NCBI GenBank assembly: GCA_030386875.1
Contig: CM059576.1
Location: forward strand, 16,806,058 to 16,870,057
Source: Morinoia aosen
Lineage: Eukaryota; Arthropoda; Malacostraca; Amphipoda; Talitridae
Reading direction: 5' to 3'
Length of the DNA: 64,000 nt
Position numbers and translations under genes: made by a program. Below the pieces are notes generated by a model. The model did no database searches, was not told where the DNA came from, and was given only the letters and a program-made list of their open reading frames with translations. Position 1 is the stretch's first letter. The number at the start of each line of letters is the position of its first letter. Of this stretch, positions 15,696 to 64,000 are shown piece by piece.

Positions 15696-15699
15696 CATA

Positions 15700-21921: not shown

Positions 21922-22059
21922 ATTTTTTAAATAAGTCTCCTCCTATGGAGGAAACTTACACTTGGAATGGTTTTGATATCAGTCGCAGCCTTACGTCAGT
22001 ACAGCTGTCCGTGAGGTACCAAGAAGATGTCCTCCCACTCAGAGTCATAGACATTTCCC

Positions 22060-26250: not shown

Positions 26251-26254
26251 GCTA

Positions 26255-26385
26255 CCTGGGGGGTATTGTGCTCGAGCTTTCCCTTATACCCAACGGGGAA
26301 AATCTCCGCGCCAGCGCTGGGAACGAACCCGCGACTTCCAGCATACAAGTTCGATCCCTTAACCGCTGTGCCACGGAGAGCACAA
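26255..26385 (-). mobile_element. tRNA-derived SINE, copy 1
   Basis: The minus strand reads from 26383 like a tRNA: an A-box-like TGGCACAGCGG, then 35-40 bases later a B-box-like GGGTTCGTTCC. A body containing CCGTTGGGTATAAGGGAAA follows. The same body and box spacing recur at 31296-31422. It abuts the truncated LINE copy that begins near 26420. Confidence 0.6.
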
Positions 26386-26419
26386 TTATTCTTTACATTT
26401 TTCTACTATGTGTTAAGGT

Positions 26420-29400
26420 GTTCTCCTCTCATGGGTATCTTGATCTTCTAAATGTCTACAATCCAAATGCTAATCTAACTGTTGATGAGCTTAATCATTA
26501 CTTTGTGCAATTAGGTGAACTAATTATTATGATAGGTGATTTTAATGCCCATGCACCTCTTTGGGACCCCAGACAGAGATGGAATGCCACTGGCAGGAAC
26601 CTCATTCAGCTTATGGATGATAATTTGCTGGGAATACTTAACCCTCCTGATCTTCCTACTTATATAGATGCCAGAACAGGTACATGCTCCACTCTCGATT
26701 TGTGCATAGTTCCTCCAACCCTCTTGGCCTGTGGCTCCCTGCAAAGAGGTGCAGATCTTGGCAGTGATCATTTTCCCATTGAGTGTTCCTTTGGTGTAGT
26801 TCTTAAAAATTTAGATACTATGAACCCTCCAAGGAGGATCATCAAAGCAGCTAACTGGGCTGGCTTCCAGCAAGAACTGTGCCATAATAAAATAAATTTG
26901 ACTCAACCATCTTCAGTTGATGAGCTAAATGCTGAAATAACCCGTAAACTTGTAAATGCTGCCCATAATAATGTTCCTAAAACCTCACCAGCTAGGAGAG
27001 TTACCCGCAGAACACCTTGGTGGGATGTGCCTTTGCAGTAGCAAGGAGACGCATAGCCCGCAATGCTCTGGCCAAATCCCCAACATTGGAAAATTTAAGC
27101 GCTTATCGTAGGAATGAGGTGTTACCAAAAAACATTATAAAACAGAAAAAACAAAACAGCTGGAAGTATTTCATTAGTGGCTTTGACTCCACCACTGGGG
27201 TGGGGGATATTTGGAGACTAATCCGTTCAATGAAGGGTAGCACTGTAAGTCCACGAGTGGAGGTAGGTGACATTGCAGAAGACTTAGGTGGTAAAGCAAC
27301 TATATTACTGAATTATTTTTACCAGACATGAGATAAGTTTTAGAGATAAGCATAGCACACTAGTGGAGAACACCATCTCAAGTGTATCTTCAGTTGAAAT
27401 TGAGGAGTCCAGATATAACTCCAGTCTAAAGTTGGTGAAATTAATAAAAATCTGGAAAAAATAAAACAAACAAGCCCTGGATATGATGAAATTCATTACA
27501 TTTTTCTACTGAAAGCACCTGATTCAATTATGAACTACATCCTTTACTCGTTCAATCTTAGTTATTTTACTGGGTACTTCCCTAAGGCTTGGAAATTGGG
27601 TATAATCTGTCCAATTAAAAAGCCGGGGAAAAATCAGGCAACTCCTGAGGGCTATAGACCCATAACTCTGTTATCATGTCTGTCTAAGGTCATGGAGCAA
27701 ATTATCAAAACAGACTGACCTCCTTCCTTGAAGCCAATAAAGTGTTTTCATGCTATCAAACAGGATTCCGTCAAGGACGATCTACGTACGATGCCATGAC
27801 TCTAATTAAGAACGCTATCACTCGTGCATTTGCCAGTAGAGGCTACTGTTTAGCGGTTTATATTGATTTAGAGAGCGCCTATGGTACTGTGTGGCATGCT
27901 GGTCTTCTTTATAAGCTGTTGAGATTAGGATGTGACAAGCGTACTTTTCTTTGACTGCGTTCTTATCTGGCAAATAGAGCAGTTAGAGTGAGAGTTGGGG
28001 GGGGTGTACTCGCAAGACAAAACTCTGACGTGTGGCCTACCTCAGAAGGCAGTTTTGAGTCCATTGCTCTTTAATGTAATGTTGCATGACTTACCCCAGA
28101 TGGAGAAAATTGAATGTGTCTCATATGCAGATGATATCACTATCATCACAAGTGGGGGATCCCCGGCGGAGATACAGCGGATGATGCAGGAGTATTTAAA
28201 TGAACTCACTCGGTGGCTCTTAATATGGAAATTGACAGTAAATAAAAATAAAACTAAGTATCAGGTTTTTACCAAAAAGAAAATTGTTCCAATACTCAAC
28301 TTGAAATTGAATTCCAAGCATATTAGTAGGGCAGAAACTCAACGAGTGCTTGGGATTGTCTTTGATGCTCCAAAGCTTACCTTTCTTCCTCACTTAAATG
28401 ATATTAAAATTGATGGGCAAAGACGAGTGCAGATACTTAGGGCGTTGTCTGGGGTCTCCTGGGGATCCTCACAAAAGTTACTGCGACAAGTGTACATTTC
28501 ATTTGTGAGAAGCAAACTTGTAAATGGGCATGTGATATTCCCGGAGTTTTCGGAGAGGAGCTTGAATTTGTTAAACAAAATTCAAAACTCAGCCCTCAGA
28601 TGTATATTGGGTGTTCGAAAGACATCTCCTATATCTTCAATAGAGGCTGAAGCATCCATTATGCCTCTTAAGCTGTACTTGTATTTTCTCTATGTTAAGT
28701 GGTGCTTGAGATACAGCAATTCTAGCAGTGACCCTTCAGAATTTGTTCCAAAAATTGGTCTATATGCTTCATCCTGTAAAAGCTTCTTTTCCTCTAAAAG
28801 AGTTCAAATACTGAATAGCATCCGATTTACCTTCCCTCACCTAGAAGTAAACACTGATTTCCCTGTTGCTTCATTTGAACTCCCCACTTTGCCCGTCTGC
28901 ACATCCTTTCCGGACGTACAGTCACTTAGTTCAGACGAGATCAATAGAAAATTTGAGGATTATGTTGTGAAGCAATATGGCGATAGCTACAAGGTGTATA
29001 CTGATGGATCTAAACTAGAGTCAGGTTCTACATCTGCTACTATGTACATTCCACATCTGAAATTATCCACAGCTTGGTTGCTCAATCCTGGCCACTCTAT
29101 AGTTGGAGCGGAGCTGTTTGCAATCCTGAAAGCAATCAAATTTATCAGGAGTAACATGCTAAACCAAATAGTGATAATTTTTAGTGATTCCACAAGCGCC
29201 TTGAGTATTATTTGTAATCTTGTTAATCCATCATATAAAATTGTTAGTAGGATTATCCAAAGACGTTTGCTAGAAGCCTCATCCAGCATCCAACTTCAGT
29301 GGGTTCCCTCTCACTCTGGAATAGCAGGTAATGAAATTGTTGATAAATGTGCAAAATTGGGCCACAGAAATTCCAAATCAGTTCTTACTCAGCTCAACTA

Positions 29401-30060
29401 TGAGGAGAATGTGAACCAACTAAAATTGAGAATAATAGATCATTGGAGTGGGTGCTGACAGAGACAGGTGGAGAGCTCTGGAAAGGGGAGATTCTATTTT
29501 GAGCTGAGCAGGAAGCCAGAGTTTCGATTAGATGTTGACTTGGCAAGGAAATTTCAATGTATTGTTAGCCGATTCCGAGTTGGCCATGTTGGTGTTTTTG
29601 CTCACCTGAATAGATTTAATATGTACCCTAGCTCACTGTGCCCAGAATGCTCCACTCCTGAGACAATTGAGCACTTCCTGTTGGTGTGCCCAAGGTATGC
29701 TCTGGCTCTAGTGAACCTCACCATGTATCTCTCTATATTTAATCTGGAACCCTGTCTTGTAAATGTTCTTGGCTGCGGTAACTACTCATCTTGCGTTCGT
29801 GCAAGGATCCTTCATTCCGTGATTCGTTTCATAACTTCAACAAACAGTTGGAAGACTTTGTGATCTCCTTGAGTGATTTATGCATGTGAGATTTAACATT
29901 TGAAGTGAACCTGATTTTCTCTGCTCTTCGGAGCTGTTTTTGCCCTCAAGTACCTCTACAAGCTGTCAGGTTGCACGGACTTCTGCTGAAAAAATCCATC
30001 GACTTTCAAGATCCTCCTGGATCCCCCCTGAAGAAGAAGAAGAAGAAGAAGAAGAAGAAG
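26420..30060 (+). pseudogene. 5'-truncated, decayed I-group LINE (ORF2 remnant)
   Basis: It begins inside the endonuclease domain (LLNVYNPNANL corresponds to about residue 120 of the intact ORF2) and runs through GDFNAHAPLWDP, SDHFPIE, RPITLLSC, YIDLESAY, SYADDITII, YTDGSK, SDSTSALSII and the C-terminal cysteine motif (CPEC..H..C). The coding text is split over frames at about 26434-27041, 27017-27331, 27530-27718, 27742-27954, 27995-29458 and 29468-29863, so roughly five or six stops or frameshifts break it. It is a diverged relative of the intact LINE. It ends in a GAA tail at 30029-30060. No ORF1 is present. Confidence 0.85.
30029..30060. repeat. GAA microsatellite tail of the LINE copy
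   Basis: About ten GAA/AAG units at the 3' end of the decayed LINE. The intact LINE has a short version of the same tail (complement of CTTCTTCTTC at about 16023). Confidence 0.8.
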
Positions 30061-42480: not shown

Positions 42481-42864
42481 AAGTAACAAGTTATAAGTTA
42501 TAAGTTATGAGCTATAAATGATAAATTTGGGGTATATACCAGGCAATTAGGTTCGGTAGTTGTGCTCAATTGACATCAGAATCACCCATAAGCTAGCGCC
42601 AAGCTTACCAGCAACTAACCTCTGAATGCCAATTGGTAAGGCGTGCTACCCAGTCCGCATTTGTCGATGGCTGTTCAAAGGGTCGTTACAGAGCACAGAG
42701 AAGGAGAACCAGCATTCACCCAGTAAGCTCATTACTGGACTTTTCACGGAATGTCCAAGCTGTCCGGTATTGGATTGACGAAGGCAGCCCATTTCTTACC
42801 GCCGGACCAGTAACGGAAGACCATCCTGAGGCACGGGCAAAATATTATATCCCATTACCGTAAG
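42481..42864. other. non-coding stretch between minisatellite and 87-bp repeat
   Basis: The sequence is somewhat richer in GC. The ORF at 42633-42863 has no recognisable domain. Confidence 0.3.
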
Positions 42865-43112
42865 ACTGGCTTGCCTGCAGTATTCCGTCTCTAGCGCTGG
42901 GAAGCCTGCCCTGACCCGTTCACAATTGTGGGATTCCTATCTTTTCCTAGCACTGGCTTGCCAGCAGTATTCCGTTTCTAACGCTGGGAATCCTGCCCTG
43001 ACCCGTTCAGAATTGTGGGATTCCTATCTTATCCTAGCACTGGTTTGCCTGCACTACTTGTCCTGACGTAAGACCGAAGCTCCTTGCGTCAAGACTGAGT
43101 AGTGCAGGCAAG
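42865..43112. repeat. 87-bp tandem repeat ending in a palindrome
   Basis: Units start at 42865, 42952 and 43039 with ACTGGCTTGCCTGCAGTATT. Two are complete. The third is a short start that runs into a hairpin: TTGCCTGCACTACT near 43044 and AGTAGTGCAGGCAA near 43098-43111, with a roughly 40-bp loop. Confidence 0.8.
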
Positions 43113-43809
43113 CCTGCATCTTGATTAGTTAACATCTACAGATATAAGTAACAATTCACTCCCATGAACAAATAAAAAAACTATAAGATATTCAGGATAA
43201 GGAATCTGATTTAAAAAATGCACATATATTTAAAGAAATCAACGTATAAAGTACTTTTAATGGAGCGACAGTAAAGATCGCGTTCAAGCATAAAAAAATG
43301 ATAATAATAAACCAGAATCAGGCACACGCACAGACTCACCCAAAACCAAGATCCCACCAGGCGCGCGAAGTGGCTTAACAATAAGGCATATAGCTACTGC
43401 ACTGGAGCAAATTACCTCAATTGGACGAAATTTATTTGCGAAAATGGCTAAATTACATGATACATTGATTAGATGATACATTATGAACAGTAATAACAGG
43501 GTGTCTACTATGATTCCATTTTCAAATTCTACTACTTTTTACAACGTTCCAGAGCAAAAAATTACAACCTAAATCCTTCATATAAATAGTTATTGCTTTA
43601 CAAGTTCCCAGATATATCAGCCTACAGCTAATGTCTAGTTCGAGTCAATATATAACGCCATAGCAACGGTGAAGCAGCATGTCAGAAAGAAGAAAGAAAC
43701 AAAGAGAAATACTTTATACTACATAACACATAACATAAGATAGTCTATTAACCACCATGAAAAAAGTGCCTTTGGTACCATTAATCGAGATCAATTGCTG
43801 TCATACACA
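43113..43809. other. AT-rich DNA without recognised features
   Basis: No gene or repeat is supported. Confidence 0.35.
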
Positions 43810-43816
43810 TCTAAAT

Positions 43817-44203
43817 AAGATTAGATTATTAATTAGTTTAAGCTTCCCTATCCGATACAACAACGATTTAAAGAGAGGAATAATGAAGGGATCATCTAGT
43901 ATAGGCCCGTGCACGGGGAATCTATGAGCAAGGTGTGTTTTTCCATCATAGGACACCAAGTGCATAGAAACAGTAAGTCAAGAAAGAAGTTCGAACAAGA
44001 AAAAGTTCAAGAAGAAAGTAGGAGGTGACGAAGAAAGTAGGAGGTACTGAAGAAAAGGATAGCAGTGAACCGGAAAAGCTGGTCCTCAACTAAACAAAAC
44101 TCGATTCTATTTCAACAAAAAGAAGGCCTACCTAACCACATCGGGACAATCCCTCTGGACGTGCAAATGCCCATAGATACAATAGTTATATCCCCCTGAG
44201 GGG
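43817..44203 (-). repeat. repeat family R, copy R2
   Basis: A full copy with the internal block GAAGAAAGTAGGAGGT duplicated. It is flanked by TCTAAAT at 43810-43816 and 44204-44210, a plausible target duplication. It lies downstream of the last exon of the DUF4806-like gene. Confidence 0.65.
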
Positions 44204-44370
44204 TCTAAATCCGACTATTTCCATGAAATACATATCAACAGAGGGCCACTTTGAACAAAAACAAGTTAAATAAACTTCCACTTTCTATAAGCGTGCAAAC
44301 AAATCATAGAACAGAAAACATAATCAGATTTCAATAGTTTTTGAGTTAGTTACATACGTTAGTTTAAGCC

Positions 44371-44560
44371 TCCCTAACCACAACAAAGGTGTTCTAAGAG
44401 AGGGAATAATGAAGGAGACCATCCAGTATGGCCACGTACAGGGGATTCTACGCACGAGGGGTGCCCCGCACATTACATCCTTGAATGGAAATTAGAAGAA
44501 GAAAGTCACAAGAACTGAAGAAAAGACAGCAAGCAGTAAACCCATAACGAAAGTCCGGAG
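44371..44560 (-). repeat. repeat family R, copy R3 (partial)
   Basis: It shares AGGGAATAATGAAGGAGACC, CAGTATGG..ACGTACA and GGGATTCTACGCACGAGG with R2 and R4. The CCCCCTGAGGGG end is missing. If the minus strand is sense, this is a 5'-truncated copy. Confidence 0.6.
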
Positions 44561-44883
44561 CAAAACAGAAAGCTCAATCTATTTCAATTAAATGGCATGC
44601 CAAATAAAAACTCAAATGAACAAACACTTAACTAAATAAAACAGTGTCAAGTCTTATTGAAATGCTGTTCGTATCATCATGAGGGGCTTATTAAAAAACG
44701 AATCAAGAATACAGAATAATAAGATGGATGCGTTTCCTTGAGTAAAAATAATGCACAAAGCTACTGAGAAGCTACTCTTGTTCAAATAATATCCGCTCAC
44801 TTTCTGTAAAGCAAAGTAATGAATTCTAATCACTGACTTCTCTCATTTTTATGAAAGAAAAAAATGTTCTACGAAATCAACTT

Positions 44884-47800
44884 TTAAAGCGAGAACGATG
44901 TCTCGAGGGCTCCCCCGAGGACGGAGCACTGTTCTTCTCGATTGGGGCACTCATGTTCCACCACAAATACTTGCTCAGAGGGCGCACCAACAAACGTACT
45001 GGCTGAGCATCCCGCCGCACAATACTCTCGCTCCACCACAAATGCTTGCTCACAGGGCGCACCAACCGACGTACCAGCTGAGCATCCCACTGCACTATCT
45101 GAAACAATACAATTTCGCTTAGAAAAAATCATCGTAACAGTAATGATTTTGACAACTTCCATTTACCGGGGTAGGAATATTGAACGTTCCGGATTTGCAA
45201 CACTTTATAAGAAAGTAAGGGCCGGAGCTATGAGTTAGGTAAAAGTTGAACAGCATCTCAACAAGCTAATTATGTTTTCGAAGATTTTTTTCATAACTGT
45301 TTACATTTTCCCATTTACTGCTCTTTCGTTCTTCTAGCAGTTTTTACTCCCAACTTTCTAGTTTTTTCCAATCTCAATATTGCAATGTTGCAGGTGAACG
45401 ACACAAATTTCGTGCATAGATTCCCACATCCCAAAGAACGTGCTATCGTTTTCCCTCTCACAGAATCACTCGCAAACACCTTAAATATATAGAATTACAT
45501 TGTTTTAACTTAGTCTCACGAGACAAACAATCGAAGTACAGCTTTTAATTGAATATTTGTGCCTCAGAATGCAGTACAAAAATACACGTTTTGCGCCTAA
45601 ACATCTGCAACATGGCAGATTGGGCTACCACTATTCGTCATTTTCTGTTTCAACACCGAATGATATTGAACATATCTCAAAATTCATCTGTTCTAACAGC
45701 TTCCCTATACACATGTCATACGTACAGCAATACCTCAAAAAAAATACATACGCTGACAAGGTCATTTAGAAATTCCTCGTAATTTCTATGTTCAAATGCT
45801 GAAATTTTATAACAGTAAGAACATCTACCATACCTCGAAATTGAATCAATTCATTTTAATATGCTCTGGTATTTGCTCCTTTTGCACGGCTGGGCATAGT
45901 CTCCCGTGATCTACCGTGCACCGGAAATTATTATTATATTAGTGGTTTAAGACTCCGTTTTCAGTAACAAAGACGATATCACAGAGGAATAATGAAGGAG
46001 ACCATCTAGTATGGACACGTACAAGGGGATTCTATGCACGAGGTGTGCCCCGCACAGGATACCAAGCGCATAGTAACATCAAGTTACGAAGGAAGTTCAA
46101 ACAAGAAAAAAAGTTCAAGAAAAAAGTAGACGGTGCTCAATAAAAGGATAGCAGTGAACCGAAAAAAGTTGGCCCTTAACTAAACAAAAGACACAATATT
46201 TCAACAAAAAGCAGGCCTACCTAACCAGTGATTCGGGCACTGACATTATCCCCCTGGGAGCGTCACTTCCCATAGATACAATAGTTGTATCCCCCTGAGG
46301 GGCCGTGCACCGGAAAAAATTTAATATAGCAGGTGTTGTTTCCTGAATTGAGGCTGAAATCACTTGTTTCAGGTGTTCAACAGTGTTGATTTTTACCTGG
46401 CACACTTGAGGCAAGATATGTCTTCATGTAAACTACACTCAACTACAACCGTAGCCTCGAGCTCACCATTATTTTCGTAAATTTACTTCTCATTTAAATC
46501 AAACCTATGCAGTTTTATTTAAATTCATTCATAATTATTGTAATTTAAATAACTTAGTAAATATAAGGTGATTTAATGTATATTCTCAGCATCTTTGTAC
46601 ATCATCAAATAAAATTCTGCATTTTTCATACTTATAAATATTGCAATGTATAACTTCACTGAGTCAAACCTTAATTCAATCAAACGCCCAATTCGGTTAT
46701 GAAATTCAAATTGATAGAGAAAAATCTTGAATACTCTACACATTCTAATTTTATCTCTAAATCCAGATGGATTACAAATGGTTTCTAAATTCAAAAAGAA
46801 GGTACTTACTACGTTTACGCTTGCGAGTACTTCCGGACCAGTCCACAGCCTGCCTCAGGAGCAACGCAGTTCGTTTCTCTATGTCGGTGAGGGACACGTC
46901 TCTAAATCTTGTCCACCGTAGAGCGCCTGGAAAAAACGAACACATAATAGCTAGTAGCTAAAACACATTGGTCACGTATGTTCCCTCTCCATTAATTATA
47001 GGAAACAAGTACAGAAAGATCGTACGAAGCTTTCACTGATAGCTAATTTACAATTAATATGTAACTAATTTTCAACACGCTTATATTATGACATGCTTGA
47101 AACATTAAAAACTTACAAACAAGCTGGTAGGAAGAATATAACAGTGCAACATTTTCACGACAAAAATCATACCGCTCCTATATAGAAGTAGCTACAGTGA
47201 ATTCAATTCACCATGAAATATAACTTACTTAAGAGAAGCTGATATGCCTTATGAGAAGAAAATTTATTCTTCGTAGGCTGCCGATTGAGACCAAGCCCAG
47301 TGAATGAATACGTCTGGGCCAGTGTTCTCGTCATCATTCGCTGCAGCATTCGACGCAAAGTATCTTGAAGACTCGGGGTTTCCAATGCTGCCAAGCTCAT
47401 GACCTGACGAAAACAATGATAACGTTCTAGTTCCCCTAAATTACTTTATAATAATTGTAAGTTAAAAATAAAACGTAAACGTGCATCGGGGGTTTACTCG
47501 TTATGTAAATCTAGGACAAGTAAAGGTAGTGAACCTGAGCATTAGCTAGCTGCATAAACATAATTGGTTCCGTACGTTTATTCACATATTTGTATTACTG
47601 TAGTACATATATATACATACATACATATATACATATATATATACATATATATATATATATACATATATATAATAGTTTTGGCTTCCCCTAGCCACTACAA
47701 GGCGTTCCCAAGATCAGAAAAGGAAGGAACAAAAGGAAATGTGTAATCTACGCACAGGACACTTATATTAGCGCATAGGAACAGCACATTAAGAAAAAGG

Positions 47801-50800
47801 AGGAAGAATAAAGTATAGAAATTAAAGGAAATAAAGTGGCCAAGAAATAGAAGAGGTAAGTGCTGTCTAAGTTGAAGTAACCTAATATCTGTTTATTCCC
47901 ATAGAACAGTATGGACAAACCTAACCTTGTTGCTCTTCTCTATGCTCACTGATGGGTTATATATTTGTGTCGTGTTACTCGTGTATAATCCTCAAGGATA
48001 CGCAAGAAGAAATTAGCACTCGCGTTAATGGTTGGAGGTCTCTGCTTAACTAGAAGTTACATTCATCTTCACTCTGCAACCGCATTATAATAAGTTACTG
48101 TCAAAAATTACTAGGCCTAGGAAGATCTAGAGCGTTATATACACGCAAGTCGATACCGTGTACAAGCAAGTCGTACAAGCTCGTAGTACAGTATCTTCAA
48201 ATAACGCTGAATTTCTCTATCTAGGGTAAAGCACAAACAGTTATAAGTAGGTACTTCTCTTGCAGCATAAAAATGCTGTATTCCAGAAAAAGACTCAGGT
48301 ATTTAAGAGGAAATAATGATGAAAGAAATGCTAAATCGCCACACTCGCATTGGCACAGATAGGTAAGTGATAAATGAGTCTATATAAAACACTTGGCAGC
48401 TCATCATATAATCAAGTCATTAAGGTATACGCCATGGAAGCTGCGCCAATAACCGTATGGACTTGAATGTATATTGACCTTGTTACATTGAAATGAGCGA
48501 GACTTCGAACTTGGTACCTCCGTTGAGGGTTTACCGAAACATTTCGGTAGCAAGTTAAGTAGAATCTACACAATTAGCAGGTAGAAACGACAGCAGTCTG
48601 AACTTTTAAGCTCTAAGCAATAGTGACTTACAAAATGGTTCGATGAAATGAGTGCAGACAACTCATCATCATTGTTGGCAGGGGGACCAGCAATAAGATC
48701 TTCCTTGGAAAGCTTTGCGGCCAAACCCCTCAAATCCTCAAGTGCTAGGTCCAGCTTCTCTTCTATCATGTCCATCTTCACTTGCATATTTGCTGCAACT
48801 TTGCTGACCTTCGCTGAAAGTGCAGCTGTCAAGTCCTGGCAGCAACAGCGCGCTTGAGGTGCGTTTGAACTACTGGAGGCATCCACAGTAGATCTGATCG
48901 TTAAGGCTGACATTAGCTAATTGTACAATAGCATTGCTACTGCTTAATGAAAGGTCTTAAATGGATGAGTTGTAAGTATATTACATACCTACATAGTTAT
49001 GCTAACTTTCTCATACTGTGCTATATCACAAACTAAAAAAATTAACTGATTATTTTATGTGATACACAATATGGACCACGTAATCAATATCGACTGAATA
49101 AATGACGTGGTCCACAACCGGCAAGCCAGGTTTAGTTTAATGATCGTGTTCCAAGAAATTGTTTCAATTAACTGGCAAAAAGATTGCCAAGTGGATTTTT
49201 TTCTTGCAATGATAATTTTAACAATTTGCCAGAAAATTTAGTTTCACAAAAGCAACTACGTCTGTGCTTTGGGGCAAAATGGGGTTCCACAGTATAGGTC
49301 AACGTCATGAACACAATGCTAAGTTATAGCTTGACATATAGAGAAATTATTAAAAGAAAGCTACAAGTTGAGGGTCGAACTGGAGTAAGTTTATGGGTTA
49401 GGGCTTCAACTCATTTTTGAAAATTAATTTAATGAATTTCATTTCTGTCAAGAGAGACGCGAGCCTTATAAAGAGTTAAATATTACCTCATCAAATGTTG
49501 GTATTCGAAACCCACCCACCCCAACACCCCTTCGACGTGATTTGGAGGGAGTAAAAACAGGTATGGCGGATTGGATCGAGGTAGAATCAGAGAACATGTC
49601 AAGGAGTCGTTGAAATACCTGTCTTTGAAAAAAATCTTCATTTTAAAAACCCTGGTCACAGCAGAAGTGCTGAGTACTTTACTACTCCATACTTCAGAAT
49701 GATGAACTTGGACTCTTCGGCAGAGAAGATTCTTTACTGAAAGTTAAACTTGGTTTGAAACTCAAGCTGAACTAGGAGTTAACTTTATTATTAGGTGAAC
49801 ATTTTGTTCAGCTTCATGTAAGATTCACCCTTTGCTGCTAAAGAATCCAAGTTCATCATCTGCTAGGATGGATAAGACAAGTAGCAACACGGCAGCCGTG
49901 AAGAAAGGTTTTGAAACCAAGTTCCACCCGAAAAATACTCAAAAGGTTTCAACTACTATTGCAGTGCAATAGCCATCAACCAGTTCCAGGATTATGCCGC
50001 AGTTCAACCCTCTGCTCAATCTCAGGATGATTAAACTGGTGGAAATTGCCAGCACCTGATGAGATAGGTAATAATTTACCCTCTATGTAGTCCAGCTATT
50101 CCTCATCAAGAATAGACTACTATTGAATATACTTTTAATAATGTTGTACAGAATATAAAATTGTCACTATTGCTTGTTGAGCCTAAACCTAACTTTGAAT
50201 CTTCATATAATACCTAGGTATGTAGCTACCAATTAGAACAGAAATAAGATGTTCTTAGTAGTGCACACACCATGAAGCAACATTATCAGCTGAGTTCATT
50301 TCATATTTTTGAATTGCTATAGCAACAATTGTGAAAATATGTAACTATTTACATAAAATACATACATATACAGTATATTCTACATAGTGGCAGCTAAAGA
50401 CACTAGTTCTGTGTACCCATGTTGCACAATACCTGAAATGATATTGGTCACTGGTACGTACACCTTATTACCAATGACATTATTATTGCTTACATTTACC
50501 CTTTTTTATAGCACTGTGACATTAGAAATAGCTGCTAATGATGCCCAGTTGAAAAAACTGCTATTACTGGCTATTTTCTAAGAAATTTTACCTTGAAGAT
50601 TGTAGGCCACCAGCATCACTCCACTCCACAGATGACATACCGCTGTCCGTGTCAAAACCATCCAGCAGCCGGTAGCACTTCTTGTAGGAATCTACAAATA
50701 AGAAACATTTTAGACCCAGAGAACCTAGTAAAAATTTGCCCAACATAATAAACACAACACTTCAGCACTACACACAACACTGGAGAACTGTATATGACAC

Positions 50801-51599
50801 TGCAGCACTGAACACCACTGCAGCATGCTCTGTAGAACTGTACACAACACTGCAGCACTGCACACAACACTGCAACACTGTAGACAATACTGCCGCACAC
50901 CATGCAGCACAGCAGCACTGTACACAATACTGCAGCACTCTACACAATATTGCAGCACTGAATGAACTAAACAATCATCCACTAGATAAAAACTTCTTAA
51001 GACAGTTTTGGCTGTTTCTCATACAAAAATGGCTGCAGATAGGCACAATATATTAAATAAAATTTCAGCCATCATTATTATTGCTGCCTCAAATAGTTCC
51101 TTTAAATGAGAAATTATTTCATTGACTTACAGGGTCACAGTTCATCAGTGACCCTGAATCACAGGGTCAATCCCACTTTATGAGTAATTAATCACTGTAT
51201 AATTGGTGAATTTTAATGGGATGTATCACTAAAATTATGCCTTGGCAATCAAAATGTTACTAACATATAAAACTTTTATCATTACCATTAACATGTGTGT
51301 ATGCATGCTCTAAATATTGAAAATTCAGATGTAGAAATGAACATAATTCGACCAAAATTTATGACACGTAGCTACAAAAATTACTTACTGGCAGATGTAA
51401 TGATATGGCAGCTGTAGAAAGACCATGAATCTTCTGGTGGTTCCAACTGCTTTGCAAGGGCTACTGGATCACCATGTGAAGGCCAAGAACTTTTGTGTGA
51501 ACCATTTTTTCTAGTTTTTACCCACGATGAGGGTACCACTGCTTTATCATTAGATTTTTCAAAATACACTCCTACATATTTTTTTATAGATGAAGACAT
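44884..51599 (-). CDS. six-exon gene, DUF4806-like protein (about 359 aa)
   Basis: Exons on the minus strand: 51599-51389, 50691-50592, 48893-48632, 47403-47229, 46926-46810, 45098-44884. All five introns are GT-AG, donors are mostly GTAAGT, and phases agree; the sum is 1080 nt with a single stop. Exon 1 (YVGVYFEKSNDKAVVPSSWV, then PPEDSWSFYSCHI) and exon 2 (NSYKKCYRLLD) match the N-terminus usual in arthropod DUF4806 proteins. Exon 3 is helical and coiled-coil-like. Exon 4 (LRRMLQRMMTRTLAQTYSFTG) is the DUF4806 core. Exon 5 is basic (STRKRKR). Exon 6 has two 25-residue repeats (GCSAGTSVGAP and GCSASTFVGAP). ATG 51599 is chosen; ATG 51635 in the same frame would add 12 residues. Family function is unknown. 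It may be a host gene or the second gene of the transposon whose transposase lies just upstream. Confidence 0.75.
45928..46302 (-). repeat. repeat family R, copy R4, with 14-bp target duplication
   Basis: A 375-bp insertion in intron 5 of the DUF4806-like gene. It is bracketed by exact CCGTGCACCGGAAA at 45914-45927 and 46303-46316. The low-coordinate end is a TTATTATTATA run, which read on the minus strand is a TAA-type tail. Long exact duplications and a simple tail suggest target-primed retroposition (a SINE or truncated LINE end). No A or B box is evident. Confidence 0.75.
47600..47672. repeat. TA/CA-rich microsatellite
   Basis: ATATATAC and ATACATAC runs, at the low-coordinate edge of R copy R5. 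It could be that copy's expanded tail. The ORF across it is an artefact. Confidence 0.8.
47675..47830 (-). repeat. repeat family R, copy R5 (partial)
   Basis: It starts TAGTTTTGGCTTCCCCTAGC and keeps ATCTACGCACAGGACAC and GCGCATAGGAACAG before losing similarity. It lies in intron 3 of the DUF4806-like gene. Confidence 0.5.
49690..49868. repeat. imperfect inverted repeat in intron 2
   Basis: GATGAACTTGGACTCTTCGG at about 49700 is mirrored by AAGAATCCAAGTTCATC near 49841-49857. Roughly 50-60 bp per arm match imperfectly. It is probably a small old foldback. Confidence 0.5.
50755..50965. repeat. degenerate CACTGCAG-rich minisatellite in intron 1
   Basis: About a dozen variants of ACACTGCAGCACTGTACACA in one run. 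Long ORFs on both strands across it are artefacts of the repeat (Cys/Val-rich on one strand, Thr/Asn-rich on the other). Confidence 0.75.
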
Positions 51600-51853
51600 C
51601 TTCTCACCTGTAGAAGTCTGTATGAAGAAGCTCAATTACAACAAATTTTCTTTTGTAGGGGAGAATCATACACTTTTTCTTCACATTTTTCACTTTCCCT
51701 TTTTTTCCATGCCTAAATATTGGAGCAAGTGTATGCCAACATCAGATGAAGAAATTGGATAATGGAATAAATTTTCCTTGGATTCAAACACTCTGAGTTT
51801 CAGTGTTTCATGAGATGCACTTGTAACAATTGCAACAGACTTGTCATTAAGCA

Positions 51854-53719
51854 TTACACAGTTGTCTTTGCTTGGGTTTTGACTTGGTTTAAGGAGTAAT
51901 TATTAATAATTACTCCTTTTTTAGAAAATTTCAATTCAGGTTGCTTTCTTTTTGAATGGAGGTGACTTAATGTAGAAATTTGTTCATTTTTTACTGTAGC
52001 AAATTTTTCAATTTGTTTGAGTGGTTTATTACCTGACCTGATGCAGCTTTTTAGCTCACCTAGAAAACTTTCATATGGGAAGCAGCTAATGTTTTCTAAG
52101 TTTCCATACCTTGCATAATCATCTGGTAAGTGAATAAGATTATGCACGTTATATGTAATAAATTCAGTGCCATAATGTTGCTGACACTCTTCAACAAATT
52201 CAAGTAAGAGGGATTTAATGAAATTGAGCTTCTCTTGCTGCTCATCACTTAAGAGAAGTCGCATGCTGACACTAAATTTAAGAAAAGTTTTGAAATGATC
52301 ATGTGACATTATAGCTTTGTTTCTTAAAACAACAGGTCCAACATATAGCAACATTAGTCTAAACTCAGTGGCTTTCCAGAACCGATGTTTAGAAAGTCCA
52401 ACCTGAAAATGCCTAACAAATTCACGGCAAATGAATGGTTCAGCACCTTTTATTGAAAGCTCAAGTGTTGCAACAGCAATGCGAGAAAATTGAGCTTTTC
52501 GGTTGGCTGCAGGTGACTTGAGCCATCTTTGCAGCAGGCGTTTCATAACACCTAAGCAGCAGAGATGCATATAATCAAGAACCATGGAACCGACTAAATC
52601 AATACCAATCGATTCTAAAATTAATGTTGAAGAATCATGATGATGCCTAGTGTCTTCACGTGACAAAAATGATTCTTTAGTTCGCAAGGGAGCATCGGTC
52701 TTATTTAATGTTACATGCCCACCATGATAAGAACCATGAACATAACACCTCTCACAAGAATTATACCCTGAATGGTATACAATGTTTTTTAGCTGAGCTC
52801 GACAAGGGGCATCACATATTATTGGTCCAGATATATCAAATTTTACTCTGCCATTCTGAGTTGGAATGCTTTCAGCCAATAAGTTTTTCAAATCATTTAC
52901 TAACATTTGTAAAAAACGATTGCAATCAACTAACTTTTGATTTTCACTTCTATTAGTACAAAATAATCCTGCTGTGAAAATTTTAGTTGGACACTCTTGA
53001 CATTTTATAAGAATAGGATACAGATGAAAGTTAGGAGATTTGTCAAAAAGAGGAATTCCGTCAATGTTGATGGCCAAGGTAAAATTACTCCCAAGATCAG
53101 TTGACCAGTTGACTTTCAAGTGTTCTTTCAGACATTTGATCCAGTTGTTAACATGAACATATTCAGCTCCACCTTCAAACAAGTCACTTTCATTGCCCTT
53201 AGTTATGCTATTGTGGTGAACCAAAGTTCGCACATCTATCGGAAACCCTGGAAAGACATTGGCTTCCACTAATTTTAGTAATCGATCAACTGCATCGTAA
53301 GGCACACTTTTTTCCTTTTGAAACCATTCTGCAATGGTAAATTTCAAAGAATTTTCTTTTTGAAATAAAGTACTACTTTTAGGGTTTAATGAATAATTTT
53401 GACTAAAATTTTCTGTTTGAGAAGAACTTGTAAGCCTGGAAGAAAAAGAACCAGAGGATGATTCCAGTAGAGTTTCATCATCATGATTAACTACTACTCC
53501 TGATGAGCAAGGCATAGAGTCCAACAGTGAATCACTCTCGACGTCGCTAGCTTCGCTGGTGCTCACTGGTGAACCTGGATCAATGCTTGACAAACGAGCT
53601 TTTACATTCAAAGTGTCATATACTCTTCGTTTTTTCTGTTTTTTTGCCAGCACGTGGAGAGGTTTTTTCAAACGTTTTCTATCCATTTCTTTCAAATTAG
53701 TACAACTGCACTGACACAC
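51854..53719 (-). CDS. CACTA/EnSpm-like transposase (621 aa or longer)
   Basis: An intact ORF of the animal transposase family with LAINIDGIPLF, CDAPCRAQLKN, CERC, RTKESF..EDTRHHHD, LDYMHLCCLGVMKRLL, FWKATEFRLMLLYVGPVVL, YNVHNLIHLPDDYARYG and FPYESFLGELK. The presumed catalytic acids are Asp near 303 (CDAP), Asp near 382 (DYMH) and Glu near 549 (YES). The N-terminal 110 residues are basic, then Ser/Asp-rich. The frame stays open upstream of this ATG to a good acceptor (CTTTGCAG, exon start 53802) and adds a cysteine-rich piece (DCQPC..CVHSVY..CQCSC), so a spliced upstream exon is likely. Its stop lies 254 bp upstream of the next gene's ATG on the same strand. Assignment to CACTA is by motif resemblance; terminal repeats were not found. 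Confidence 0.75.
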   Translation of the reverse strand: MCQCSCTNLKEMDRKRLKKPLHVLAKKQKKRRVYDTLNVKARLSSIDPGSPVSTSEASDVESDSLLDSMPCSSGVVVNHDDETLLESSSGSFSSRLTSSSQTENFSQNYSLNPKSSTLFQKENSLKFTIAEWFQKEKSVPYDAVDRLLKLVEANVFPGFPIDVRTLVHHNSITKGNESDLFEGGAEYVHVNNWIKCLKEHLKVNWSTDLGSNFTLAINIDGIPLFDKSPNFHLYPILIKCQECPTKIFTAGLFCTNRSENQKLVDCNRFLQMLVNDLKNLLAESIPTQNGRVKFDISGPIICDAPCRAQLKNIVYHSGYNSCERCYVHGSYHGGHVTLNKTDAPLRTKESFLSREDTRHHHDSSTLILESIGIDLVGSMVLDYMHLCCLGVMKRLLQRWLKSPAANRKAQFSRIAVATLELSIKGAEPFICREFVRHFQVGLSKHRFWKATEFRLMLLYVGPVVLRNKAIMSHDHFKTFLKFSVSMRLLLSDEQQEKLNFIKSLLLEFVEECQQHYGTEFITYNVHNLIHLPDDYARYGNLENISCFPYESFLGELKSCIRSGNKPLKQIEKFATVKNEQISTLSHLHSKRKQPELKFSKKGVIINNYSLNQVKTQAKTTV

Positions 53720-53802
53720 TCCAAAATCAGGGGCTTCTAAATAAACACTATGAACACAGACCTGAGGCAGCAGGCAAGGCTGACAATCAGATGTTAAGAT
53801 TT

Positions 53803-55450
53803 CTGCAAAGGTAGGTAGCTATTATTTTTTCTTACTAGGCTATTATTATTCATATTAGCTACTAACACATTTTGAGACATCTGTGCTGAATTTCCAACAA
53901 TTTCAGTTTTCTTTGTGATTGTCCCATATTCTCATAGTCAGGTACAAGTTTAGTCAGCTACAAGTAGCTACTTCCAATAAAGAAATGTCTCCTGCAGCTT
54001 GTCCAATAGGTGTCATACTATATGTAGTACATTGCACATTTTGGTCAATTTTTTGAAGTGGACAGTAGCTAATAGATTTTTACGCAAATTATCACCGTTT
54101 GGCAGGGTAGAATTATTGAATCATCGTAAGACAGTCGTACCCATTGCTTAACTGTCGCAAACGCAGTTGTCAGATTAGCCTACGATGCTATTAATTTCCC
54201 GTAACAAAAATATTGTTCAATCAACTTAACAATGAAAAATGGACTACACAACTACAAAAAAGTGCTTAAAAACCTACCTTAGTATAATTAAATTCTTTTT
54301 GTAACACTTTTTAATCTCAATATGTACGAGCAGAAACAAGACAGGGCCGAGCACTCCTGCATCTACCCTACTGGGGAGGATAACAGCTTTTTTGAAAAAT
54401 ACGGTTTAAATATTTACAGGTGCACATAGGTACACTTCTTAATTCATGAACAATTAACAGAGTGCATAGGCTAACCCACTCTATGTACAAGTACAGTTAC
54501 TACTGAAATCTTATTTAATACACAAAAAACTTAACAGAAATTCCTATCACAACTCAAAAAATATTAGATTCTACCAATAAATTTCTACTTTACAAGAAAG
54601 AAGGTGGTAACAAGGTTTGTAGGGACAATTTTATTAAACTACTGTATAAATAATATATTTTTGCTTGGGGAAAACACTTTGTTGCTGACTAGTTAGGCCT
54701 ATCCATAGAAGGATATGTATGATGGAAACTTCTTGAAACCTCTGAGAAAAAGATTAAAATCTAGCCTGGTTTCAGCAATAAAATACAAACACAAGTGTTG
54801 CCACGGAACAAATTTAATACAGCCTTTTGTGAGCGATTAAAACTTAAATGTAACTCATGGGCTGCATTCACATTTATTTACTGATTATGGGCAGCAATGT
54901 TTTTGGTAATACTTAAGCAGATGACCATATAAATATAAATTTATTTCTTTTTGTCAAATTTTAAATCTGCTGCTTTTCTAGAAAACAGACTTGGGAGAAA
55001 CATTGATAAAATTCACTTTAATATCTGTTCCTTATCAAAAATTTGAGGGAGGAGAGCAAAAAAATTGATTTTTCTTTCACTAAAATTATTGAAAACAGTA
55101 AAATAGACACACACAGACCAAGAATAGGTTAAAACAAGAAAGTTCAAGTTCTATTCCCCTAATTTTTGTAAAATAAAAGGTCAAAAAAAGTGAAAAAAAA
55201 TCCATTTTCACCCTCATATTTGTGAGAAGGAATAAATAGTATTGTGATTTCAATATTATATCAATATTTTGCCTCAACTCTATTTTCTAGTTAGAGAAGT
55301 GGCAGTCACAAAAATTGCCCCAAAAGACTATAGCCTATTAAAAGGAGTTAGACACAGCTTAGGCTAGTTCTAACTAGGCCTAGATAGTTCAACACTGCTT
55401 AGCCGTATGTAGGCTAACTAGGTATAGTTAACTAGGCCTAACTTAGGTAG
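53803..55450. other. upstream region of the transposase gene, no gene seen
   Basis: AT-rich and non-coding. A promoter or first exon for the 51854-53802 gene should be on the minus strand here, but I cannot place it. I searched by eye for CACT-type terminal repeats and found none convincing. Confidence 0.35.
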
Positions 55451-55453
55451 TTA

Positions 55454-55606
55454 GGGTAAAGGCAGGAACGACCGGCCCTGCAGTAATAACTGGCCTCCTT
55501 AACAAAAAGCAATTGGAGTAAAGAGCCTGCTCCTTTTTTCCATTGCTTTTTGTTAAGGAGGAGAGTTAGCTTATTAGTGCAGGGCCGGTCAGTCCTGCCT
55601 TTACCC
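55454..55606. mobile_element. hairpin MITE with TA flanks (153 bp)
   Basis: Ends GGGTAAAGGCAGGAACGACC and the complement of GGTCAGTCCTGCCTTTACCC. Inner arms CTCCTTAACAAAAAGCAAT and ATTGCTTTTTGTTAAGGAG also pair, leaving a loop of about 25 bp. TA lies at 55452-55453 and 55607-55608. It has no coding capacity. Confidence 0.8.
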
Positions 55607-55608
55607 TA

Positions 55609-58600
55609 GCTAGGTAGCCCTACTTTACACTGCCTGGGTCATACTTCAACACTGACTAGGCATAGCCTAATCTAACTAAGCCTAGCTACTTCTCATTTTA
55701 TTAGCACAAAAGAACAGAAATAGCTGCATGGTAAACTTAAACACCCTAATTTTAAGTTATGAATATCCTAAAACAATGCACAATGCCTATACAGTTGATA
55801 ACACGCTAAATACGCGCGAATTTTTTGCGCGCACACACACACACACAAACACCGGTCTGACAGGTTTAGGTTATTGCTTGTTTAAAAAAGCTGCGTAGTA
55901 ATACCAACATTAACTTTATCAACACTTTTCCGCAAGTAATTCTGTAATCTATACGTTTATTAAATAAAAATATCGAACATAGCATAATTATTTACGAAAA
56001 TTTCTACATTTTTTTATTTAGAATAATTCTATTCTAAATTCCTGCGCTGAAGAGTATAGTTCTACGCAAGAGTCTCTTCATTTTTCTTAACACGACCGCT
56101 TGTGCAGCTACATAAAACATGTAAGCCCGATGTGATAGATAAAAACTTATCACCAATAAAGTTGATACAAGCAATGAAATATGGCCAATATTGGCTTCTA
56201 CTAAACTATAATATTAGAGTCCTCAATTGGTATACGTGTCTTTATAGTGCATAATACCCGCTAGATATTAAAGGGGGCTAATTGGTGACAAAGCATGACA
56301 TTTCAACAGACTTAAACCCTGTATACAGATTTAAAATGCCCTGAAAACCACAAAACGTACAAGCATTTGTTCTGAAATGCACTAACTTGATACTTTAAAA
56401 TTTTCAAGTCTATTACTTCCCAATCGATATACGTATAGGCCTAGTGGAAGCGCAAATAAAAGAGTTTTCCTTATTAAGAAATGTCTGTTCTGCCCATAAT
56501 CTTAAAACATTTAACTTAGGTAGTTATTCAAGTTTTCCATACATTTATGCACTTATTATCAACTGCTTATATGTTAGTTCTTGTTAGTTACCAAAGTCCA
56601 AAATTTAAATGAACTTTGTTAATATATGTGTATTTTCTGTCAACGAAACTTAACGGCAAACTCAACATGCCATTTTTCCCGGCAAAGTACTATAGGCTCC
56701 TACACTTCATACAGGCTATAGATAAAAGTTGCTCTTTTGAAAGGACAACTTGCTGTAACCTATAAGCTACATATGCAAGTTTGCCTTAACACCTATTCAC
56801 AGCGATATTTTACTCGAACCAATGATTCAATTATTTATATAAGCCAAAAAGCCAAAATTATTATTCATACAAGCCAAAATTAATTCAACTAAAATCCATC
56901 AAGCAAAGAGTTAAGAACTTCATTGATGAATAATTACTATTCGAGGTGATATAGGGCCTGTAACTTGTAAAAAGTTTTTTTATGTATGGACAGGAACAGT
57001 TTCATTAATTTATTACGACCATGGTGTATTGTCAATATTTTATTACCTTACTTTCTTCATATTAACTGATGTCAAATGTTTTTTTTCTTCGACCTATGTG
57101 TTCAACAGAGTTTGATGTATTATAGGTACTGTTCTGACTGCGTCGTTAGAATTAGTATTTGCGTTCATAAATTATTAAGACCTTATTGTATTGTAAATGT
57201 TTTATTTTTTTTTCTAATTTCATTGCCGCGAAATGGTTCTTGAATGTATGTGTTTAATCGAGTTTTCTCAAATTTGATACATTAGAGTTACTATTTTGAT
57301 GGCTATTGTTCGTAACAAACATAAATCGTCGTTTCCTATCTCTCTTTCCCCTTTTTCGATTGATGTCGAGTACGATACACCGTGACCGGTTTTGAGATAC
57401 ATGATGAATAGACAATTTCTCTCAGTGAAGGATGCGCCTTGTAAGAAAAATCAATCAGTATGGGGGATTCGGTTCCCATAATTGGTGACTCTGTACCATG
57501 GTACCTAGCCTAATTTTATTTTTTTTAGCAAATAACTATTGAACAATTTCGTATCTACAAAATCCTTATGTTAATAGTAGTTTGTAAGGATTTAGTAATC
57601 AGGTATGGTTGCTGTAATGAATGATTCTTAGGTACTTAAACGTTTATTTAAATTTCTTGGCGTTACAAATTCATGAAACATACACTAACGCACAACTTTT
57701 TTGCTCGTTGTATTTTTTTATATTTCACGATTAAATTATTTCCCTTGTAGCGTAACACCAGGTGTTTATATAATTTAATTTAATTTAATTTATAACTACA
57801 CAATATGCATTTTTAAGCATATTCTTACGCTTGGTTTCCGGTAATGTAATTGGTATAGTATTTTTCTTGGAGTGCCAGTACGGGCTTACAATCGGTTTTC
57901 CTTTTCAACTGAAATGAATATACCGGAACGAAACAGGCTTCCCACAATACTCTCGTTGAGAATGGGAACCCATTACTGACCCAACTCGCCCGAGACGTAA
58001 ATTTACTCTTTAAAGAGAAGCCAGAGTTAATCCCGTACTGAAATTACACTTTCCACGGGAATCCAGTACTGACCCTTCGTTTCCTACGTCACCCCATTGA
58101 ACAGCCATTAATAAATGCTGACTGGGTATCGCTGCAGACGCTGAATATTCCCACGATGCACAGGTGCAGGGTAGGCGTGTGGGCGGAAGATGGTCCTGCT
58201 CCCAAGCGTCTAGACGGCGAGCCAGAGAGGCAGACGCGACGAGCTGGACGAAGGCTGGCACTTGTTTAGGATTTAGTCCATCATCCTTATGCCACTGATG
58301 ATGAAGTGACAAGAACGATGCATGTGGTGATCTTAGCGTGCGGCGAAGAAGCGAGAGTCCAGTTGGTTACTCCGTCAGTGCTCATAGTTATCTGCTGAAA
58401 CTGTTGAAAACTCTCCAGAGGAAAAGTATAAGTTGCGTTCAGAGGGCATTAGCTAATGGTTGTATTCAAGGAAGTTGCAAGAAAGAATGGCAAAAGCTAT
58501 GGGAGACATTGAGCACACATACCCCTATATTTGATATCTTCGACAAGTTAAATCTTTTCTTTTGAACTTTCGAGGATGTGCATTGGTGATTTCATATTTA

Positions 58601-61556: not shown

Positions 61557-64000
61557 CGCCAATGCGAGGCTCTCCCAGACCCCCCTGCAGGGGCGGTCCC
61601 TCTGAATGAATTCTTCCACGCCGAATTTGCAGCAGCAGCAGCAGTAGCTACGAAGAAATCATCATATGTGAGTTCCTATAATCTATTGAGCTTGGAGAAT
61701 TGTTTACTTATATATGTAAATAAGTGTTAGCAATTGTACCAATGATGGGTTCCAAAATGAGCAATACAAATGTTTCCCTTGATTACAATCCCACTTTTTT
61801 ACATCCAATCAATGCAGATATCTGAAAATGACTCCGAGAGTAACGACGGCGCCGAAAGTGAAGAGCACTCCAACGACTCACAACATTCAGACGACGACTT
61901 CCAGAATAAAATATCTGAAAATGACTCCGAGAGTAACGACGGCGCCGAAAGTGAAGAGCACTCCAACGACTCACAACATTCAGACGACGACTTCCAGAAT
62001 AAAATATCGGAAAATGACTCCGAGAGTAACGACGGCGCCGAAAGTGAAGAGCACTCCAACGACTCACAACATTCAGACGACGACTTCCAGTATGAAATGT
62101 CCTCCGGAAAATGCGAACGAAAGTACGAAAGTACGACAGATAACTTTTTTATGGAATGGCAACTAGCAGCGCAAAGAAGAACCGTCGAAGAAAATTTCGA
62201 AAGGTTCATGAGAGCAAAGAAAAATCAGATTTATCGTTTGAAAGAACGGTTTACTGTAAGGCTGAACGGTTGCAATAATAAACATATTTATGAACGAGGA
62301 CATGAAAGGCACATTGCTCTGTTGAAAGGCATAGCAAATCTCAACCAAGAGTGTGATTGCACATTTTATAAGAGAAAATTATATCCGAGCTCCCTTCTTG
62401 CAGGACGACCCTTGTTCAGTTTCCTAGTTCGCTGCCAAGACCCGCTCTGCGGCCTCAAGCAAAAAATTGTCTGTTTCAACGGGCAGGAAGAAATAGCGGG
62501 AAGATGTACAGTGTACTTGTTGGAAGCACACGAAGCGAATAATAACCATAAAATTAGTAAGAGACAGGCAAAAGTTGAGGAAAAACAACGCATTGGACAG
62601 GCTGTCTTACTGGAAGGCGCGACGAGTGTTTACTATAAACAATTTGCCAATACGGGAAATGGTACGGATACCACGAAAATTTCGTCCCTCGATCGTCTCA
62701 GGAAACTTGGACAGATGGTGAAGAACCGCAATAAACTTGCTAAGGATGACAAGTCGGACTTAGAGTTAACCATCGAAGGCTTGAAAGCCTCTGACAAGGC
62801 CAACAAAAAAACTATCCCCACTTTTGTGCAAGAATACGATACGATCAACTCGAAAATAATACTTCAGACCGAAGAAGAGCTGCGCGAGCTTGCCAGAACC
62901 CCGGATGCCACTCTTCATTTGGATTCCACTGGAGGAATCGTACAAGGTGACGAATCGAACAAATACCTCTATCATGCAGCAGTTTTTCAAAGAAAAAAAG
63001 GTGATTCGCCATTATCAGCCATCTCTATGGTATGTAAAAAAAGTTCTACAAGCTACATCGAAGGTATGCTCGCAATCCTCGTACAGAACTATAGAGAAGT
63101 CAACGGCAAAGACTTCAAACCGAAGTGCATAGTAGTCGACCACAGTTTCGCATAGTTACATGCGATAACTGCTGCCCTGAAATTGGGCGAACTACCATCA
63201 TATCTTGACCGCCTGTGGATGACTCGCGATCAGGCGGAGCTCAATTATTCACAGGTGAAGCTTTGCCACGCGCATTTTATGAAGACAATTGCTGGCAAAT
63301 CTAAGAAGTTCTTCCCAAAACTGAAGCCTCAGGAACGCAGTATAATAAAGCAGTATTTTGCCGATATGGCGCAAGCTCCTTCAAAACAGCATATCTACGC
63401 AATCTTTAGGAAACTTACCCAACTTCTGCTCACTCCTTTCCTTGGAGAGGGAATTGAACGTCTCATGAGTCGTGATGTTTCCATCGACATTGACCCTGAC
63501 GATGTCGAGCCTACTAACGCAATGATAGTAGAAGACACCGGGAGATACCGCGATAAGTGTGCCGTGGGTAAGAAATTCGTGGCTATCGCGGCAGACGTTA
63601 AAAAAAACATGACTATTGAAGGAACAATCCCTAATCCTTTGTATTCCCCTGAGATGCTGGAAGACGTATTGACGTTTTCCATGCCATTCACTCCACTTTG
63701 GTGTGGAGTGCATGGTGGAACTAAGACAAATGGATTAGTAGAAGGGTGGCATAAAATTGTGAAGCAGGATATACTTCAAGGAAATCGAAAAACACTAGCA
63801 GAGTTCATTCGTACTATGAAGACACAAGCGGAGGGTAGAGCGAAAGAAGCATCGCTCGATTACAAGGAACGCAATAAGAAGGCCGTGAAAGAAGTGAAAG
63901 AAGTCGAAAACGAGTATGAAGAGCGCTGGGGGGGAGAGCGATCTCGGGCACAATCTTTAACTGAGAAAGCTCGAGAGAAATTCAATCAAATTCTGCAGGG
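61557..64000 (+). pseudogene. MULE-type transposase gene, one in-frame stop, runs off the window
   Basis: Exon 61557-61667 (ALPDPPAGAVPLNEFFHAEF..KKSSY) has acceptor CTCTTCAG and donor GTGAGT. The next exon begins at 61818 after AATGCAG, phase 0, in frame with ISENDSES. It encodes an acidic triplicated segment, a cysteine-containing region (CDC, later CQDPLCGLKQ), then a MULE-like DDE core: LHLDSTGG (first Asp), CIVVDHSFA (second Asp), and NGLVEGWHK (Glu, near 63740). A TAG at 63153-63155 follows DHSFA; the same frame is then open to 64000 and stays transposase-like. One nonsense change or readthrough is thus the only visible defect. The acidic and basic 3' part (AEGRAKEASLD) continues beyond the window. 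No terminal repeats were seen. Confidence 0.7.
61818..62090 (+). repeat. 93-bp coding triplication (31 residues per unit)
   Basis: Units start at 61818, 61911 and 62004, nearly identical at DNA level (the third reads ATATCGG for ATATCTG and diverges at its end). Each encodes ISENDSESNDGAESEEHSND followed by SQHSDDDFQ. It is a recent in-frame expansion. Antisense ORFs across it are artefacts. Confidence 0.92.

Follow-up and report, generated by a model that had tools for sequence, protein, structure and literature searches.

A window of 64,000 nucleotides from the genome of the amphipod Morinoia aosen (the whole stretch of DNA analysed here, on contig CM059576.1) contains a transposon of 15,478 bp in which a gene for a CMC/EnSpm-type DDE transposase is followed, on the same strand, by a second, putatively spliced gene whose predicted product resembles proteins with the DUF4806 domain (Pfam PF16064). 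The features of this locus, in window coordinates and with the evidence that places each of them, are as follows.

42647 to 42648, no strand: target-site duplication TA, left copy, directly outside the left repeat
42649 to 58126, sense strand minus: whole transposon, 15,478 bp, placed by the abrupt end of ~99% identity to two sister copies at both edges, by inverted repeats and by a target-site duplication
42649 to 42682, plus: 3' terminal inverted repeat, 34 bp, placed by the edges of sister copies and the repeat match
44884 to 45098, minus: proposed exon 6 of the DUF4806-type gene, uncertain, about two 75-bp tandem units; splice phase fits
46810 to 46926, minus: exon 5, coding for the basic tail and the end of the domain; possibly the final coding exon, reading on to a nearby stop if unspliced
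47229 to 47403, minus: exon 4, first part of the DUF4806/BEN-like domain by Pfam and profile; splice sites kept in 16/16 copies
48632 to 48893, minus: exon 3, middle part; splice sites kept in 18/18 covering copies
50592 to 50691, minus: exon 2; splice sites kept in 19/19 covering copies
51389 to 51599, minus: exon 1, conserved N-terminal domain, by splice model and profile match
51604 to 51886, minus: C-terminal transposase part, out of frame with two frame changes, by profile matches in two other frames; open in 16/18 fetched copies
51857 to 53686, minus: CMC/EnSpm-type DDE transposase, open part, 610 aa, by homologues, invariant residues and a RAG1-like model; its last ~10 codons already belong to a wrong frame
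58093 to 58126, minus: 5' terminal inverted repeat, 34 bp, begins CCC, 29/34 bases matching the opposite end
58127 to 58128, no strand: target-site duplication TA, right copy, directly outside the right repeat

The first-pass annotation had suggested that the two genes form one two-gene transposon extending over 44884-53802. The single unit is borne out and its extent has to be enlarged, as both genes lie within 42649-58126 and are enclosed by the inverted repeats and the TA/TA duplication; ends lying between the two genes, which that annotation had named as one possible counter-observation, are excluded by the ends at 42649 and 58126. Identity of the window to sister copies A and B, found by a search of the same genome (1.99 Gb, 29 contigs), drops sharply at 58126-58142 and 42646-42649, and the left edge is common to all of the scored places outside the window (39/39, within 10 bases). 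From copies in the same genome, 20 3' ends and 20 predicted 5' ends were fetched. Both ends were located in 17 of these 20 further copies, all 17 with the shared inverted repeats and an exact 2-bp duplication (TA in 7, TT in 4, TG in 3, TC in 2 and AC in 1) and none with a 3-bp duplication; three of the 20 predicted 5' ends were absent from the predicted place. With the window and copy B (CT/CT), exact 2-bp duplications amount to 19 of 20, copy A being the miss. The element measures 15.45-15.50 kb in 12 of the 17 copies and 15.8-22 kb in the other five, where the extra length presumably represents insertions. A search for inverted repeats confined to 43400-57000 yielded nothing convincing; the true ends lie outside that interval and were found only with the sister copies. 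The motif TAGCTA, a lead abandoned once the ends were known, has 15 sites inside the element and 15 outside; it is about threefold denser inside, yet does not cluster at the ends.

The interior of the transposon also harbours repeats of other kinds. SINE-like (short interspersed element-like) repeats of very roughly 370 bp lie in the same orientation at 43833, 44359, 45942 and 47672 (the last recognised by eye), with a further one near 47690 in copies L013 and L014 and near 47540 in copy L016. A foldback hairpin resembling a miniature inverted-repeat transposable element, at 55448-55612 upstream of the transposase, is common to copies A and B.

The transposase frame runs on the minus strand from 53818 to 51857, stop to stop, with its first ATG at 53686. 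A protein search returned 270 homologues at E<=1e-5, and D209, D292, C311/C314, H515/H519 and E539 are invariant across 16 aligned sequences, the tested motif being defined as in passages of PMC12730594. The predicted structure matches RAG1/Transib, with a RAG1-like fold of the catalytic region. Pfam finds DUF4218 in the window transposase at E 0.0009, below the family cut-off, and among the 16 aligned proteins (E<=0.01) it finds DUF4218 in 7 and Transposase_21 in 1; a PDB sequence search with the transposase alignment gave no match. The open reading frame was at first described as intact, and here the description has to be revised: the window transposase is broken, with approximately its last 94 codons out of frame, the C-terminal domain being split over two other frames at 51693-51899 (E 2.1e-12) and 51607-51741 (E 9.2e-9). 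Among 18 fetched copies (of 20) in which the start of exon 1 was found, 16 have a transposase of 738 aa, stop to stop, ending 4 nt before the ATG of the DUF4806-type gene, and in the remaining two a transposase of 709 aa is separated from that ATG by 90 nt and one of 656 aa by 476 nt. The second gene is downstream and on the same strand, as had been noted, but the gap of 254 bp reported between the two genes is out-of-frame transposase, since the frame reaches to within 4 nt of that ATG in 16/18 copies. Three copies (C4:39389027, C21:52589953 and C10:31539714) can be aligned with the window's shifted transposase frame as far as its end, and each contains internal stops. They look older, being 87-93% identical with 4-7 stops, and because the first frame change is common to these three older-looking copies, it may be inherited rather than private to the window. 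Computed exon by exon against the majority codon, the ratio of non-synonymous to synonymous rates (dN/dS) of the transposase is 0.51 (26 synonymous and 49 non-synonymous changes, 21 copies).

For the second gene, the six proposed exons are bordered by GT-AG, agree in phase and predict a protein of 359 aa. Exons 1-5 keep their GT/AG splice sites in all covering copies, a weak test at ~99% identity. To this extent the six-exon model of the first-pass annotation stands, while its exon 6 is uncertain: the same reading occurs in copy A, its exact acceptor string was not found in copy B, and it has no counterpart in relatives, which end soon after the exon-5 basic tail, except P0130. The likeness to DUF4806 was confirmed with a profile built from fish and insect proteins, the window excluded, which scores the spliced window protein at 43.5 bits, the best of 1000 shuffles reaching 5.3; the N-terminal domain contributes 34.9 bits and the C-terminal region adds 9.7. 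Against 1969 six-frame pieces of the window, the best hit of this profile is exon 1 (E 2.6e-8), followed by exon 4 (E 0.07). Curated PF16064 taken alone is weak, matching exon 4 at E 0.034 (14.9 bits, cut-off 25), but in the same genome the family of locus L074 combines the exon-1 domain with a PF16064 match over the cut-off. The second gene is accordingly classed as DUF4806-type by wider homology, not by the Pfam cut-off. Neither a protein search with the spliced window protein (E<=0.001) nor a PDB sequence search with it gave a match; a PDB search with the DUF4806 alignment A2 gave five, the best (E 3e-4) being a putative translation initiation factor, a match that is taken to run over a coiled-coil stretch. 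The predicted fold of a fish relative's DUF4806 protein appears to match BEN domains, at 7-16% identity over 13 BEN rows. Some DUF4806 families of the same genome (for example C5:56275427 and C4:59116173) encode the domain within one open frame of 298-309 aa rather than in a many-exon gene.

The window element belongs to a numerous family. At least 68 places in the genome carry the window's transposase, most of them 97-99% identical, and exon 1 of the DUF4806-type gene or a piece of it lies downstream, on the same strand and within 3 kb, in 68/68 scored transposase places, which, being copies of a single element, do not count as independent; in 56 of the 68, it lies 251-254 bp from where the matched transposase stretch ends. 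Conversely, 5 of the family's 77 exon-1 rows are without a transposase among the matches listed. The DUF4806-type gene is therefore multi-copy and inside the element in its own genome, and the earlier suggestion of a domesticated derivative falls away, as the locus is the element itself. Of the 3' ends, 40 were scored: 24 go with a transposase among the matches listed, 15 are those of deletion derivatives and one fits neither group. Such derivatives, of which G000:C1:46383798-46390850 is an example, are near-identical to one another; they retain fragments of exons 1 and 3, have no transposase among the matches listed, and account for at least 18 exon-1 fragments. The deletion derivatives suggest mobilisation in trans.

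The pairing also recurs in diverged families of the same genome. An exon-1 search listed 150 rows, 55 of them diverged, and at 8 fetched loci of these 55 (33-46% identity, about five lineages by alignment) a transposase lies directly upstream on the same strand in every case (8/8), with the catalytic core in seven and the C-terminal domain only in one. Curated PF16064 has at least 138 rows over the cut-off in this genome (150 of 224 candidates scored) and none over the cut-off in 14 control genomes. With a diverged transposase from L074 as query, at least 71 rows were obtained, in a few families at ~77-100%, 45-51% and 42-44% identity. Among the matches listed, 40 of these 71 are followed on the same strand, within 8 kb, by a PF16064 row; none has one upstream on the same strand, and one has it on the opposite strand. 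Seen from the other gene, 39 of 138 listed PF16064 rows have this transposase upstream, against a null mean of 0.04 and maximum of 1 (500 random placements, 75-Mb contigs), so that the proposal to look for co-occurrence in the same order gave a clear positive answer in this genome. An exon-1 row stands beside 9 of the remaining 31 transposase rows, which brings those with a DUF4806 partner to 49/71 among the matches listed. That a host DUF4806 gene should stand by chance beside an unrelated transposase was conceivable only from 44884-53802 taken alone, and can be considered refuted by the repeats and duplications that surround both genes, by the 68/68 scored transposase places with exon 1 or a piece of it, and by the 40/71 listed diverged rows.

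Beyond this genome, six of 131 fetched proteins are gene models in which a transposase and DUF4806 are joined in the same order, three among 120 listed transposase matches and four among 12 matches of the DUF4806-region search, with P0106 in both:

P0079, beetle Brassicogethes: fused model, from the transposase search
P0095, moth Choristoneura: fused model, from the transposase search
P0106, seahorse: fused model, from the transposase search and the DUF4806-region search
P0124, bass: fused model, from the DUF4806-region search
P0127, catfish: fused model, from the DUF4806-region search; short transposase core piece and C-terminal domain only
P0130, catfish: fused model, from the DUF4806-region search; transposase C-terminal domain only

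These fused models are predictions rather than cDNAs; annotation may in some cases have joined two neighbouring genes, and even then transposase and DUF4806 would be seen to be adjacent. Four of the six omit the transposase C-terminal domain, the outcome expected if the core were spliced to the DUF4806 exon. A tree of 74 tips places transposases that carry DUF4806 on either side of its midpoint root, and for this reason the pairing is either old or recurrent. No relatives were confirmed in the viral contigs or prokaryote genomes searched. Collectively, these results show that one mobile unit holds both genes and that the pairing recurs in diverged families and in other animals.

By its ends, target-site duplication and transposase, the element is best assigned to the animal CACTA kind, termed TRC; termini of the plant type are not present. 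Animal CACTA/EnSpm (TRC) elements are defined, in the available text of PMC1636069, by terminal inverted repeats beginning CCC and a 2-bp duplication, and the window element has both. Its likenesses to the schistosome element SmTRC1 and other animal TRC extend to an EnSpm-type transposase with a CxxC motif, 2-bp duplications and internal deletion derivatives, and the two tandem genes recall two tandem open reading frames in a SmTRC1 transcript, as described in the same part of that source (PMC1636069). The repeat of Aedes TRC reads CCCAGTCAAC, and those of the window element read CCCAGTCAGC and CCCAGTCCGC, all beginning CCC. It differs in length, with 15.5 kb vs the 4.5-9.2 kb reported in that text for SmTRC1/TRC, and in that its second protein can be identified as DUF4806-type. 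For the second protein of SmTRC1, the available text of PMC1636069 argues that it must act like TNPA, and states that other animal elements had no detectable relative of it in 2006. In the literature on DUF4806/PF16064, as far as its text was accessible, no link to transposons was found, with Repbase, which may hold an entry, outside its coverage. What is new, as far as the literature searched shows, is that the second gene can be identified as DUF4806-type.

Other two-component systems offer further comparisons. Plant En/Spm, with TnpD and TnpA, likewise encodes a transposase plus a second unrelated protein, whereas the window element lacks CACTA termini, has CCC instead, makes 2-bp duplications and has no subterminal repeats that we could find; plant-type CACTA elements make 3-bp target duplications. 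The RAG1-like model of the transposase recalls RAG1-RAG2/ProtoRAG and Transib, and ProtoRAG is likewise a transposon of two genes, one of which encodes an unrelated partner protein; however, the partner in the window is DUF4806 and not RAG2, and its duplication is 2 bp, where that of the RAG/Transib type is 5 bp. The BEN proteins (BANP, BEND6, BEND3, Insensitive, Bsg25A) may be alike in the predicted fold of the fish relative's domain and are unlike in that sequence identity is very low, that the N-terminal domain attached to DUF4806 is a different one and that a transposon carries it.

On these grounds, the locus is very probably one copy of a recently spread, two-gene, cut-and-paste animal CACTA/EnSpm (TRC) transposon whose DUF4806 protein would serve as a TnpA-like helper or regulator, most likely the animal counterpart of plant TnpA, a role that we assign by analogy. 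Transcription would proceed from the 58126 end, and a single transcription unit would yield both proteins, whether through alternative splicing or through reinitiation, on the pattern of maize Spm (tnpD/tnpA) and schistosome SmTRC1. The RAG1-like DDE transposase, judging from its fold and residues, would cut at the CCC...GGG ends, and insertion would leave the 2-bp duplication. The product of the second gene, in which a conserved N-terminal domain is followed by a middle part and then by a C-terminal DUF4806 domain, predicted to be BEN-like in the fish relative, would bind element DNA and assist or regulate the transposase, the role of plant TnpA.

Several results weigh against this interpretation. 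Copy A is flanked by GC and GA, no 2-bp duplication; among the matches listed, 22/71 diverged transposase rows are without a DUF4806 partner, and only 39/138 PF16064 rows have that one transposase query upstream; and the diverged rows are copies of few families, not independent events. Curated Pfam calls no family at E<=0.1 on the full spliced window protein, DUF4806 included. The BEN-like fold has a Foldseek E of 0.37 and concerns the fish relative rather than the window protein, and no subterminal repeats, as a TnpA-like protein would bind, stood out in the element. Finally, dN/dS of DUF4806 exons 1-5 is 0.63 (8 synonymous and 16 non-synonymous changes and 1 stop, 16 copies), and because these changes are too few, we make no claim of constraint.

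This last value would fit a passenger, that is, a captured host gene with no part in transposition, and gene capture is known in other DNA transposons, such as that of TET/JBP genes in fungal elements (PMC12730594, in the passages available). Yet the gene keeps its place and order in diverged families of its own genome, and fused models occur in fish, moth and beetle, with both sides of the midpoint root represented; so wide a retention would hardly be expected of a passenger, and we regard this alternative as improbable. Somewhat better placed, if still unlikely, is the alternative that the DUF4806 protein is a chromatin or silencing factor of the element (a derepressor or repressor) rather than an end-binder in the transposition complex. 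The BEN-like fold predicted for the fish relative is common to chromatin regulators, DUF4806 is called a BEN subtype with a suggested chromatin role in the available part of PMC11075544, and plant TnpA is described in that of PMC1636069 as acting on promoter methylation besides transposition. Nothing direct speaks either way, and the in silico search found no binding site. The TnpA-like helper stays our preferred reading of the second protein.

The window contains other mobile elements. A long terminal repeat (LTR) retrotransposon at 7509-15697, which we take to be BEL/Pao-like, has LTRs ~98-99% identical with a 39-bp minisatellite in each, and an open reading frame of 1810 aa. A two-frame element resembling a long interspersed nuclear element (LINE) lies at 16350-21942 and encodes a 600-aa protein with a CCHC zinc knuckle and a frame of 1272 aa, presumably endonuclease/reverse transcriptase-like; an apparent second, broken LINE-like element lies on the other strand at 26238-29458. 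At 61761-63155, a 464-aa frame with three 93-bp in-frame tandem repeats at its N-terminus matches no Pfam family at E<=1 and is assumed to be MULE-like.

For DUF4806, a domain of unknown function, these findings provide a concrete home and a likely job as a transposon helper, and make it the candidate second protein of animal CACTA elements. With near-identical copies and deletion derivatives at hand, the question of the helper is open to a cell assay. The findings also call for caution, as DUF4806 expansions may be transposon copies; the family is reported as enriched or expanded in the available text of genome papers on Hydra and an ambrosia beetle. The wider proposition that all DUF4806 proteins are second proteins of animal CACTA transposons is tentative, and we consider it rather doubtful. 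If it is true, the many DUF4806 copies of Hydra, fish and beetles would represent genes of transposons or their domesticated remains, and the BEN-domain regulators of hosts would be connected, through the BEN fold, with a DNA-binding protein of transposons.

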